The position numbers and the translations under genes were made by a program. Shown one piece after another: positions 94 through 41,412 of a stretch of DNA of 60,144 nucleotides. The notes under the pieces are model-generated. The model saw nothing but the letters and a program-made list of their open reading frames with translations, had not been told where the DNA came from and did not search any database. Positions within the stretch are counted from its first letter, which is position 1. Every line of letters starts with the position of its first letter. The DNA comes from an uncultured Acholeplasmatales bacterium (lineage in GTDB: Bacteria; Bacillota_I; Bacilli_A; Acholeplasmatales; Anaeroplasmataceae): positions 1 through 60,144 of the forward strand of contig CALUXR010000010.1 of the NCBI GenBank assembly GCA_944324795.1, read 5' to 3'.

Positions 94-117
94 TTTGATA
101 CTTTGTAATATTTTAAG
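94..117. repeat. Possible degenerate downstream copy of the ATPase promoter repeat
   Basis: Just beyond the 3' end of the ATPase gene lies a stretch containing TTTGTAAT followed by ATTTT. It shares its core with the three CACATTTTTGTAAT repeats found upstream of the same gene. The match is short in AT-rich DNA, so chance is quite possible. It is listed because the other DUF4143 ATPase in this window (near 39-40 kb) clearly has its repeats on both sides. Confidence 0.25.
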
Positions 118-1462
118 ATTTCTTTTGATTCCAATTTATATAATTAGTTTCATTAAAAAATCTTTTTAATAAAAAACTTAAAAAATAAGGAAAAGTAAAT
201 TTGTCATTTTCAAATCCAATATTACTATTTATTAATTTTATACCATATTTGATAGCATTGCTGTTTTCTAATATTTTATCTAATGATTTAGTTCTACCTT
301 TTTTTCTTTTAACTTCAATAGGAACAAATTCATTTTTAATACGAATTATAAAATCTAGTTCAATAGTTGAAGAATCATTTTTATAAAAATATAATGGATA
401 ATTTTGTTTAATTAATTCTTCAGATATTAAGCTTTCATAAAGGGCGCCATTATAAATGTCATAATTATTATTAATTATTAAATCATTTTTAGCTTCCTCA
501 TCTATATTTGCGACAAATAGTGAATGATCTGCATAATATATTCTAAAATAATCTTTTAATTCATAACTTGATAAAGGTAAATCTAATTTTTCTAAATTGT
601 AGGCTATGTTAATGATGCCGGCATCTTTTAACCATTCCTCGGTGCCACCATATTCTCTAAATCTTGCCCCATGACCGAGCTTTGAAATTTGAAATTTATG
701 GTTATCTTTAGCTAATTGGCTTGAAATGTGCCTATAAATATTTTTAACTTTAGCTACATCTAGTCCTTCAACATATTTTGTTATATCATCTTCGTAATCT
801 TTATGAATTCTGTTTTGAACATAAAATACATTTGAAAAAACATTTTCTTCGATAAAAGTATTAACAGCTTCAGGCATACCACCTACAAATATATAATCTT
901 TATATAACTGATTTAATTTGTTGAAATAAATGTTTGGTAAAGGAAGAAGATTTTTCATATATGAGAAAATATCGTTAATTTGGTCAAATGTATAACCATT
1001 TGCCCAAAGAAATTCTTCAAAATCTAAAGAATACATTACATATTCTTCCTTAAAACCTACAGGAATACTTGAAATTTGTTTATAGTTTATACCAAGTAAA
1101 GGACCTGAACAAATAACATCAAAGCGACCGTCTTCGGCAAATGGTTTTAACGATGTGATAGCGTTAGGATAAGCTTGAATTTCATCAAGGAAGATTAAAG
1201 TATTATAATCAATAAATTTGAATTTTGGATTTAATAAACTTATTTCTTTAATTATAGTATCAATATCAAAACTCATATTAAAAACATCCTTATATTCAGG
1301 ATTAAAAATGAAATTTATTTCGATAAAAGATTTGTAAGTTTTGCCAAATTCTCGTATTGATGTAGTTTTACCGACTTGTCTAGCTCCAGATATAATTAAT
1401 GGTTTGTGATGTTCTTTATTTTTCCAATTTAATAAAAAGTCATTAATTTTTCTTTTTAACAT
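113..1462 (-). CDS. AAA+ ATPase with C-terminal DUF4143 nuclease-like domain
   Basis: This 449-residue protein belongs to the large family of AAA ATPases carrying a C-terminal DUF4143 domain. The family is common in anaerobes and its function is poorly known. The N-terminus has a Walker A motif (GARQVGKT, about residues 26-33) and a Walker B motif (LIFLDEIQ). The C-terminus has a PD-(D/E)XK-like pattern, ELDFII followed by PIEVKRKKG, as seen in restriction-endonuclease-fold domains. The start is set by a GAGGAGCG ribosome site just upstream. The gene is divergent from the Wadjet operon and is preceded by three evenly spaced copies of a 16-20 bp repeat. A related ATPase is at 38963-40324 and a more distant one at 20686-22053. 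The family call is solid; substrate and role are unknown. Confidence 0.85.
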   Translation of the reverse strand: MLKRKINDFLLNWKNKEHHKPLIISGARQVGKTTSIREFGKTYKSFIEINFIFNPEYKDVFNMSFDIDTIIKEISLLNPKFKFIDYNTLIFLDEIQAYPNAITSLKPFAEDGRFDVICSGPLLGINYKQISSIPVGFKEEYVMYSLDFEEFLWANGYTFDQINDIFSYMKNLLPLPNIYFNKLNQLYKDYIFVGGMPEAVNTFIEENVFSNVFYVQNRIHKDYEDDITKYVEGLDVAKVKNIYRHISSQLAKDNHKFQISKLGHGARFREYGGTEEWLKDAGIINIAYNLEKLDLPLSSYELKDYFRIYYADHSLFVANIDEEAKNDLIINNNYDIYNGALYESLISEELIKQNYPLYFYKNDSSTIELDFIIRIKNEFVPIEVKRKKGRTKSLDKILENSNAIKYGIKLINSNIGFENDKFTFPYFLSFLLKRFFNETNYINWNQKKS

Positions 1463-1475
1463 ATAATTCGCTCCT

Positions 1476-1556
1476 CACATTTTTGTAATACTTTTCAACA
1501 CCATTTTACACATTTTTGTAATACTTTTTTGTCAAAATTTCACATTTTTGTAAAAC
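1476..1556 (-). repeat. Three direct repeats upstream of the ATPase gene
   Basis: Three copies of CACATTTTTGTAATACTTTT (plus-strand reading) lie at 1476-1495, 1509-1528 and, in shortened form ending TAAAAC, at 1541-1556. They are spaced 33 and 32 bp apart, about three helical turns, so a bound protein would meet them on one face of the helix. The first copy abuts the ribosome site of the minus-strand ATPase gene. A TTGACA box on the minus strand (1530-1535) lies between copies two and three. An operator for autoregulation is the simplest reading. This is inference. Confidence 0.75.
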
Positions 1557-38820: not shown

Positions 38821-38847
38821 AAAGGTTAGGACAATCCTAACCTTTTT
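38821..38847 (+). terminator. Terminator after aldo/keto reductase gene
   Basis: AAAGGTTAGGA and TCCTAACCTTT form an 11-bp stem with loop CAA and then Ts. Confidence 0.9.
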
Positions 38848-38874: not shown

Positions 38875-38923
38875 TACTTTGCGTGTTATTTGGAAATTTA
38901 TAAAAAAATACTTTGCGTGTTAC
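38875..38923. repeat. Upstream repeat pair of second DUF4143 ATPase
   Basis: TACTTTGCGTGTTA occurs at 38875 and 38909, exactly 34 bp apart, with GAAATTTATAAAAAA between. The second copy overlaps the -35 region of the promoter. A nearly identical 49-bp unit lies after the gene at 40349-40397. The motif differs completely from the repeats at the other two ATPases. Confidence 0.85.
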
Positions 38924-38940
38924 ACCATTTGTTGTATAAT
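38912..38940 (+). promoter_or_regulatory. Promoter of second DUF4143 ATPase
   Basis: A perfect TATAAT at 38935-38940 has a poor -35 match (TTTGCG or TTGCGT, 16-17 bp upstream) lying inside the second repeat copy. Binding at the repeat would block or assist polymerase there. Confidence 0.55.
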
Positions 38941-38962
38941 TATAATGAATGGAGATGGTAAT

Positions 38963-40324
38963 ATGGAAATAAAAAGGAAATTATATGATAAATTATTAGA
39001 ATGGAAAGAAACAACAAAAGGAACTAAGGCGTTATTAATCGAAGGGGCACGTCGTGTTGGTAAATCAACAATTGCTAGTTTTTTTGGACAAAATGAATAT
39101 AAATCATACATATTAATTGATTTTAATAAAGCAAATAAAAGTATTAAAGAAGCTTTTGACAATTTAAATGATTTAGATGTTTTTTATCAAAAGCTTTCGT
39201 TAGAAATGAATGTTAGATTATATAAAAGAGAGTCACTTATTATCTTTGATGAAATACAAAAATTTCCTAAAGCAAGAGAAGCTGTTAAATATTTAGTGGA
39301 AGATGGTAGATATGATATTATTGAAACTGGTTCATTAATTTCAATTAAAGAAAATGTTTCTAACATAACTATACCTTCTGAAGAAAGAAAAATTAATATG
39401 TATCCAGTTGATTTTGAAGAATTTATGGTTTATATGGGAGAAGAATTATTATTAGAGTATATAAAAGATTGTTATTATAAAAAAATACCATTAGAACAAA
39501 AAATGCACTTAAAGGCTATGTATTTATTTAAAGAATATATGCTTGTAGGTGGTATGCCTCAAGCATTAAAAGTTTATAAAGAGAATAATAAAGATTTCTT
39601 TTTAGCTGATATTGAAAAAAGAGATATTTTAAATTTATATCGCGATGATATTAAGAAAGCTGCCAAAAAATATAATTCTAAAGTGTCAGCTATATTTGAA
39701 AATATTCCGGGATTTTTATCTAATAGTTCAAAAAGAATAGTGTTAACAAAAGTTTCAAACAATGATTCTTTTGCAATATATGATGAACCATTATATTGGT
39801 TAGGAGACTCTAAAATTTGTAATCTTTGTTATAGATGTACTGATCCTAATGTTGGTCTTGCTTTAACAAAAGATGACAGTTATGTAAAATGCTATATGGG
39901 AGATACTGGTTTATTGGTTAGTTTAGCATTTAGTGATAATGAATTAGCAAATAATCAATTATATAAAAATATAATGCAAGATAAATTTTCTTTAAATAAA
40001 GGAATGTTATATGAAAATGTTATTGCCCAAATGCTAATTTCTTTAGGTAAACAATTATATTATTATACTCATTATGATGATATTTCTCATCGCAATGATA
40101 TGGAAATAGATTTTTTACTTAGTAATGATAGTAAAATTAATTATAAAATATTTCCTCTTGAAGTTAAATCTAGTAAAAATTATCAAGCATTATCTTTAAA
40201 TAAGTTTAAAAATATTTATAGCACAAGAATTGGTATGCCATACATCATTCATCCTAAAAGTTTAATGTTTAAAGATGATATTTTATGTATACCACCATAT
40301 ATGTTATATGCTGCCTTTAATTAA
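38963..40324 (+). CDS. AAA+ ATPase with C-terminal DUF4143 nuclease-like domain
   Basis: This 453-residue paralogue of the ATPase at 113-1462 has Walker A GARRVGKST, Walker B LIIFDEIQ, the ETGSLIS segment and a C-terminal MEIDFLLS...PLEVKSSK nuclease-like motif. ATG 38963 is chosen because GGAG (38951-38954) is 8 bases upstream and the predicted transcription start lies near 38947; the longer frame from 38879 reads through repeats. The gene stands alone and is bracketed by repeat pairs with 34-bp spacing. Role unknown; proposals for the family include mobile or self-regulated elements. Confidence 0.85.
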   Translation: MEIKRKLYDKLLEWKETTKGTKALLIEGARRVGKSTIASFFGQNEYKSYILIDFNKANKSIKEAFDNLNDLDVFYQKLSLEMNVRLYKRESLIIFDEIQKFPKAREAVKYLVEDGRYDIIETGSLISIKENVSNITIPSEERKINMYPVDFEEFMVYMGEELLLEYIKDCYYKKIPLEQKMHLKAMYLFKEYMLVGGMPQALKVYKENNKDFFLADIEKRDILNLYRDDIKKAAKKYNSKVSAIFENIPGFLSNSSKRIVLTKVSNNDSFAIYDEPLYWLGDSKICNLCYRCTDPNVGLALTKDDSYVKCYMGDTGLLVSLAFSDNELANNQLYKNIMQDKFSLNKGMLYENVIAQMLISLGKQLYYYTHYDDISHRNDMEIDFLLSNDSKINYKIFPLEVKSSKNYQALSLNKFKNIYSTRIGMPYIIHPKSLMFKDDILCIPPYMLYAAFN

Positions 40325-40348
40325 AAAAACAGTAAATGAATTATTTTA

Positions 40349-40397
40349 TACTTTGCGTGTTATTAAGAAATTTATAAAAAATCACTTTGCGCATTAT
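40349..40397. repeat. Downstream repeat pair of second DUF4143 ATPase
   Basis: TACTTTGCGTGTTAT (from 40349) and CACTTTGCGCATTAT (from 40383) are again 34 bp apart, with GAAATTTATAAAAAA between. It is the same 49-bp unit as 38875-38923 with a few changes, in the same orientation. No gene to its right would need it as a promoter. Confidence 0.85.
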
Positions 40398-40420
40398 AAA
40401 AAGGAACTATTTAAAGTTCC
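40398..40420 (-). terminator. Terminator of Na/Ca antiporter gene
   Basis: GGAACT and AGTTCC pair; on the minus strand a T-run follows. The stem starts at the stop codon. Confidence 0.8.
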
Positions 40421-41412
40421 TAAAATACTAATATACCAGTGTCTCTTAAGATTGTATATGTTAGATATAAGATATATATAATCATTAGTGAAGCGCCTTC
40501 AATACGATTAACCTTGCCTTTTCTTAAGGCATAAATAAATATTAAAATAATAGCTAAAACCATAAATATAACATCTACATAACTATTATTATTTAATCCT
40601 AATGGATTAATCACACCACTAAAACCTAAGATAAATATTATATTAAAGATATTAGAACCAATAACATTACCAACAGCAATGTCATTTTCACCTTTTCGTG
40701 AAGCTACAAGAGAAGTAACAAGTTCTGGTAAACTAGTACCTACAGCTACGATTGTAAGCCCAACTAAAAGTTCAGACATACCAAACTCTAAAGCTAATTT
40801 TTTAGCAGCATCAACAGTTAGAATACCACCACCAACAACACCTGCTAAACCAAGAATAGTAAACATGATACTTAACCAGGTTTTTCTTTCTTTTTTAGGT
40901 TCATTTAAGGTTTCAGTTTCAACTTCCAAATTTAAATTTTCTTTTCTTTGTTTTAAAGCTCTATAAATAGCTAAAGCAATATAAAACACAAACATTATAA
41001 ATAAGATAGCCGCTTCCCATCTATCGATTTTAAAAGGAGTAATAGCATAACTAAATAATGCTAAAACAGCCATAACAATAAATAAAATTGGAATATCAAA
41101 TTTCATAATATCTTTAGATACTACAGTTGGTAAAATGATAGAACAAAGTCCAATTATGAATAAAGAATTGAAGATGTTAGAACCAACAACATTACCAAAA
41201 GACAAATCAGAACTATTTGTTATAGCGGCATTAATGCTAACAGAAGCTTCTGGTAAACTCGTTCCGATAGAAACTAAAGTTAATCCGATAATTAAACTTG
41301 GAATACCAAGCTTTTTAGCTATATCGCTAGCCCCATCAACAAAGAAATCGGCTCCCTTAACTAATAATACCATCCCAACTATTAATAAAACTATATTAAT
41401 AAATATATCCAT
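40420..41412 (-). CDS. Sodium/calcium antiporter family (CaCA, YrbG-like)
   Basis: This 330-residue transporter has two homologous halves, each with the alpha-repeat signature: GLTLVSIGTSLPEASVS with GNVVGSNIFN in the first, and GLTIVAVGTSLPELVTS with GNVIGSNIFN in the second. About ten membrane helices surround a central charged loop. It is a K-dependent Na/Ca exchanger type. An AGGAGG site lies about 14 bases upstream of the ATG, farther than usual. Confidence 0.93.
   Translation of the reverse strand: MDIFINIVLLIVGMVLLVKGADFFVDGASDIAKKLGIPSLIIGLTLVSIGTSLPEASVSINAAITNSSDLSFGNVVGSNIFNSLFIIGLCSIILPTVVSKDIMKFDIPILFIVMAVLALFSYAITPFKIDRWEAAILFIMFVFYIALAIYRALKQRKENLNLEVETETLNEPKKERKTWLSIMFTILGLAGVVGGGILTVDAAKKLALEFGMSELLVGLTIVAVGTSLPELVTSLVASRKGENDIAVGNVIGSNIFNIIFILGFSGVINPLGLNNNSYVDVIFMVLAIILIFIYALRKGKVNRIEGASLMIIYILYLTYTILRDTGILVF

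Follow-up and report, generated by a model that had tools for sequence, protein, structure and literature searches.

Plasmid replication initiators are encoded beside iteron arrays, tandem direct repeats next to the gene of the presumed binder, and are subject to autoregulation. In restriction-modification systems, the controller protein (C-protein) boxes form an operator at the own promoter of a mobile, potentially harmful enzyme module. We analysed a stretch of 60,144 nucleotides (contig CALUXR010000010.1, positions 1 to 60,144 of the forward strand; hereafter the window) from an uncultured Acholeplasmatales bacterium (assembly GCA_944324795.1), in which a gene for an ATPase with AAA_14 and DUF4143 domains is preceded by boxes placed 34 bp apart. 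We consider it fairly probable that these 34-bp-periodic boxes are the ATPase's own operator array, bound by the protein for autoregulation and travelling with the gene. Like iterons, the ATPase arrays are tandem direct repeats next to the gene of the presumed reader; however, their period is 32-34 bp instead of ~22 bp, they are chromosomal, the protein is unrelated, and no origin or replication function was seen for them. With the C-protein boxes they would share the design of a mobile, potentially harmful enzyme with its own operator, but a separate controller gene exists there and none was seen here, where the ATPase-nuclease itself is the presumed reader.

In protein the window ATPase resembles PDC-S01, a PADLOC candidate single-gene phage defence system (COG1373-like, AAA_14 plus DUF4143), the likeness being a full-length profile match. 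PDC-S01 is reported to rank fourth in frequency among the defence systems of prokaryotes (PMC12988326) and, in rumen genomes, to be the individual locus met most often (PMC13356809). The accessible text of the former (PMC12988326) describes an ATPase fused to a PD-(D/E)XK domain, as in the window protein; an upstream array, a period of 32-34 bp and covariation with the protein are not part of the PDC-S01 description in the published portions available. Repeats are not described in the accessible literature on DUF4143, COG1373 and PDC-S01, which mostly excludes subscription journals, so an earlier description is possible, and nothing was found in the accessible PDC-S01 literature about what PDC-S01 binds.

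The repeat units at the ATPase locus

38875-38923, plus strand: upstream array of two boxes 34 bp apart, 5' of the ATPase promoter and overlapping it; the box is shared with nearly all orthologs
38919-38946, plus strand: predicted promoter, -35 GTTACA at 38919-38924 and -10 TATAAT at 38941-38946 (10 of 12 positions; consensus scan only)
38963-40324, plus strand: AAA_14-DUF4143 ATPase of 453 amino acids with ATG start, matching PDC-S01 of PADLOC (Pfam and PADLOC profiles)
40349-40397, plus strand: downstream array of two boxes with a 34-bp step, a rare feature that is probably a relict or the product of a duplication

Both units begin with the box TACTTTGCGTGTTAT (38875-38889 upstream and 40349-40363 downstream), and the second box is TACTTTGCGTGTTAC at 38909-38923 in the upstream unit and CACTTTGCGCATTAT at 40383-40397 in the downstream one. 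The boxes are 15 bp long, the box-to-box step is exactly 34 bp in both units, the orientation is identical, and the two 48-nt units show 88% identity with the spacer included. The preliminary description, which reported such paired boxes with a conserved spacer on both sides of the ATPase, was therefore confirmed in its coordinates. It also placed the upstream unit over the promoter, and the -35 hexamer (38919-38924) of the best promoter-like site indeed shares bases with the second upstream box. Its further remark on the downstream unit held as well: this unit is located between the stop codon of the ATPase and the 3' end of a convergent antiporter-like gene, so there is no gene for it to drive.

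The coding sequence was taken as 38963-40324 from the ATG; a longer open reading frame (ORF) from a TTG at 38879 crosses the boxes and is unnecessary. Scanning the whole 1.70-Mb genome for ACTTTGCGNNTTA revealed five sites, composed of the four ATPase-flanking boxes and one site at C14:36917, inside an apparent transposase gene of contig C14.

Upstream arrays in orthologs and in the family

Eighty orthologs with 61-71% identity were fetched from several phyla, including Lachnospiraceae, Treponema and other spirochaetes, Fibrobacter, Succinivibrio and others. A position matrix found the same box in 2-9 copies upstream of nearly all of them, as of the window gene, and the step between neighbouring boxes was exactly 34 bp for 157 of 178 neighbours; L070 had one box only. 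Downstream arrays among the orthologs belonged to the window gene and L035. The apparent downstream array of L087 was rejected, being really the upstream array of a full copy located 3' of a truncated copy.

The family survey took in 183 distinct genes, drawn from the genus, from nine additional genomes and from several plasmids. The strict array test required a direct repeat that matches in at least 11 of 12 bases and is located in the 200 bp upstream of the gene. This test was passed by 125 of 180 genes, with a period of 32, 33 or 34 bp in 122, against 2 of 175 on the downstream side (the window gene and L035) and 1.6% of shuffles. Thirteen of 310 other ORFs of the same loci also passed, about ten of which represent an ATPase array viewed from a divergent neighbour or an overlapping frame, or the ATPase itself. 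In the tree, arrays were found in 67 of 79 members of one clade and in 4 of 31 of the other, clade I (p = 2e-12); since the strict test misses some arrays that the matrix detects, 67 of 79 is a minimum. The array upstream of the gene is the rule, and the downstream copy is probably an accident.

Many orthologs have TATAAT-like hexamers within the array. The idea that TTGCGT acts as a sigma-type -35 in all arrays was rejected, for a TATAAT is often, though not generally, present at 16-18 bp, and the fit in the window is a different hexamer.

Relation of box, protein and host

Across the 39 ortholog-bearing genomes the strict two-box pattern occurred 14 times, always at the fetched ATPase loci. 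Between genomes, box similarity stayed at background below ~50% protein identity and rose to 9.8 at 60-75%, and none of 2000 within-genome box permutations, which keep the host composition, reached the observed association of box and protein. It is the protein, and not the host, that the box sequence follows. A conserved site that is confined to the own promoter and changes with the protein instead of the host is what a self-encoded operator calls for, and it was found here. The earlier proposal of a DNA unit recognised by the ATPase is thus supported by inference, as the box is exclusive to the gene, kept in several phyla, different from the boxes of every other ATPase lineage in the same genome and tracking the protein.

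The preliminary description also raised the matter of repeat pairs scattered without the ATPase. None was seen in the home genome; among 395 genomes of the window's class there were two strict matches, one upstream of an ATPase and the other a solo array in a genome without ortholog (G381). This solo two-box array, at G381:C65:7523-7567 (L153, L270), is followed by different repeats of ~29 bp and may be a relict or a landing site.

Sites of a host regulator, or an RNA element, would also be located near a promoter as these boxes are. However, one box is used across phyla while paralogs in one genome differ in box, no further genomic sites exist except the one inside the transposase-like gene, and many boxes are located 5' of the predicted promoter; we regard this explanation as very improbable. 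For the RNA element, an Rfam search gave no match.

The second ATPase of the window and other paralogs

116-1462, minus strand: second AAA_14-DUF4143 ATPase, ~30% identical, with the same gene-plus-array design
1476-1553, minus strand: own array of the second ATPase, TTACAAAAATGTG at 1476-1488, 1509-1521 and 1541-1553, with spacing of 33 and 32 bp

The three copies of TTACAAAAATGTG upstream of the second ATPase are exact (chance expectation 0.01), and they are unrelated to the boxes of the ATPase at 38963-40324. Further DUF4143 genes of the home genome and of the genus possess their own unrelated repeats at the equivalent place. In G000, the region C3:88843-95136 (L017, L011, L007) contains a tandem cluster of several DUF4143 genes and fragments, as if units accumulate and decay there.

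Transfer of the cassette and flanking duplications

38821-38845, plus strand: terminator-like hairpin 3' of the aldo-keto reductase gene, left neighbour of the inserted stretch
40402-40421, minus strand: terminator-like hairpin belonging to the convergent antiporter gene, next to the inserted stretch on its right
40420-41412, minus strand: Ca2+/cation-antiporter-like gene, convergent to the ATPase, whose 3' end faces the downstream array

In 85 ortholog pairs with at least 78% DNA identity, the homology between hosts has its left limit at the array (median -95 relative to the ATG) and its right limit at the stop codon (median 0). L073 and L074 share 99.1% identity over the cassette and are mostly different outside it, except for ~75 bp directly upstream. 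In the congeners G006, G007 and G003, ~35-95 bp separate the aldo-keto reductase gene from the antiporter gene, and ATPase and boxes are absent; the distance between the two genes in the window is ~1.6 kb, and the intergenic DNA is too diverged from the congeners to give base-exact ends. Array and gene behave as one transferable cassette. L024 and L025, considered as two insertions, were set aside, since no difference exists between them in 9,347 bases and they are uninformative on the cassette ends.

Local sequence is directly duplicated on both sides of the unit at 16 of 77 ortholog loci and around 13 of 98 other ATPases, 29 of 175 in all, versus 4 of 147 control genes (p = 3e-5). Some cassette copies lie between 60-150-bp duplications of unique, presumed target DNA. 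The duplications of L227 (87 bp, 95%), L031 (62 bp) and L041 (129 bp tested) are present genome-wide only at the two flanks, which rules out dispersed genomic repeats for these three loci; that of L041 has an additional short self-hairpin match. Some ATPase brackets are the array itself, among them the window's own and those of L035 and L199. Inverted repeats between the two flanks were few, and rarer than direct repeats.

These patterns could suggest that the array serves a single-gene transposon as its mobility site, where the ATPase-nuclease assembles and cuts or copies the cassette into intergenic sites with long target duplications. The homology bounded by array and stop codon, the cassette-limited identity of L073 and L074, the three congeners with the gene pair and without the unit, and the excess of flanking duplications, the three tested ones being unique to both flanks, all fit such a role. 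But an operator transferred together with its gene predicts the identical pattern, the right end has no array as a rule, some members of the mostly array-free clade I also have flanking repeats, and RhuM-like and AlbA_2-like control genes are bracketed too, so the duplications may reflect a general insertion process. We consider a mobility site unlikely, while giving it some weight. We give little credit to the wider proposal that each array-bearing PDC-S01 ATPase forms an autonomous mobile element of one gene, in which the protein would assemble on its own 32-34-bp array, its nuclease domain would insert the cassette into intergenic DNA with target duplications of unusual length, and the array would serve as operator and mobility site at once. 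The earlier suggestion that the paired units are the ends of a small mobile unit is not supported in that form: matching repeats at both ends, the rule in terminal-repeat transposons, are rare here, the downstream repeat occurring in only 2 of 175 genes, and the right edge of the moving unit is the stop codon, not an array.

The downstream array of the window is most likely an extra copy from insertion of the cassette beside or into an older array, or the leftover of a lost neighbouring unit. It needs no function, as a duplication involving the array or the loss of a neighbouring unit would leave such an array.

The bracketed controls included a RhuM-like gene (L026, 2314-3231) and an AlbA_2-like gene (L060, 2123-3763), named from sequence, with direct duplications of 67-84 bp; several one-gene accessory families may share a common insertion process. 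Three clade I DUF4143 genes without arrays (L228, L242, L247) have short palindrome-bearing direct repeats, e.g. GTGGCTAGCCAC, on both sides. In L086 and L098 of Fibrobacter the unit has copies of a Fibrobacter repeat, CATAAAGAGCCCCTATAAGA...GCGGGTTCGCAAGCGGTT, to its left and right; this repeat appears to be of the interspersed intergenic kind.

The ATPase-nuclease protein

39674-39898, plus strand: residues 238-312, helix-helix-helix-strand-strand segment, probable winged helix (AlphaFold2 secondary structure)
39899-40321, plus strand: C-terminal PD-(D/E)XK nuclease-like domain with intact D383, E400 and K402 (70-sequence alignment)

Pfam identified AAA_14 (1.6e-23) and DUF4143 (4.6e-18) in the window ATPase, and the PDC-S01 profile of PADLOC matched over residues 1-449, the full length, with an E value of 9.6e-98. 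In the alignment of 70 sequences the Walker A and B residues are invariant, as are E400 and K402, and D383 is present in at least 90%. With its full-length profile match, and with intact motifs both in the ATPase and in the PD-(D/E)XK-type domain joined to it, the window protein is assigned by profile to PDC-S01, a candidate anti-phage system.

The AlphaFold2 model had a mean predicted local distance difference test score (pLDDT) of 90 and a predicted template modelling score (pTM) of 0.90. Its best fold matches were the archaeal AAA+ ATPases PABY2304 (2qen, E 7.9e-8) and SSO1545 (2fna, E 5.2e-7), but with a template modelling (TM) score to the query of only ~0.4; MalT, RFC, ORC/Cdc6 and MuB entries ranked lower, and all matches were partial. 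A PDB sequence search with the window ATPase gave no match. In the model, residues 238-312 are compatible with a probable winged helix. This segment has 37 columns conserved in the TACTTTGCG group, 21 of which are distinct from the other groups, versus 39 of 157 conserved columns elsewhere (Fisher p = 3e-4, phylogeny not controlled), a correlation that makes the segment a candidate reader of the box.

The array might also be the self-address of a defence nuclease, at which the bound enzyme is parked inactive and released when an invader disturbs the complex. The PDC-S01 assignment, the intact ATPase and nuclease residues and a dedicated array found only at the gene would agree with this; on the other hand, a collection of 2.9 million viral contigs contained no arrays, so neither phage carriage nor a viral decoy or target was seen there, and we think such a role quite doubtful. 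Thirteen unannotated "Bacteriophage sp." gut contigs of a phage collection encode distant relatives of the ATPase.

A probable self-encoded operator

The operator that we favour as the simplest account is based on the observed place and period of the array, its restriction to this gene, its inheritance together with the gene and the covariation of box and protein. The AAA+ protein, with its probable winged-helix segment and PD-(D/E)XK domain, would bind the array that overlaps its promoter and would probably do so as an oligomer across neighbouring boxes. The bound ATPase would repress this promoter and limit its own synthesis, and such autoregulation would restrain the ATPase-nuclease. As address and reader travel together, the cassette would be regulated at once in a new host.

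Several points weigh against this explanation. The 34-bp step corresponds to ~3.25 helical turns, which puts neighbouring boxes on different faces of the helix. The promoter position relative to the boxes is variable in many orthologs, about 12 of the 79 members of the array clade fail the strict test, and the solo array of G381 exists in a genome without the ortholog. Activation by the protein, instead of repression, would fit the same anatomy.

Every such protein probably has a private DNA address that it reads and controls. A protein-matched promoter array across the family gives a predicted DNA ligand for thousands of uncharacterised ATPases, whose regulation, specificity and possibly mobility become directly testable. 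The arrays also represent a large natural collection of protein-site pairs, and pairs from the same genome are presumably orthogonal.
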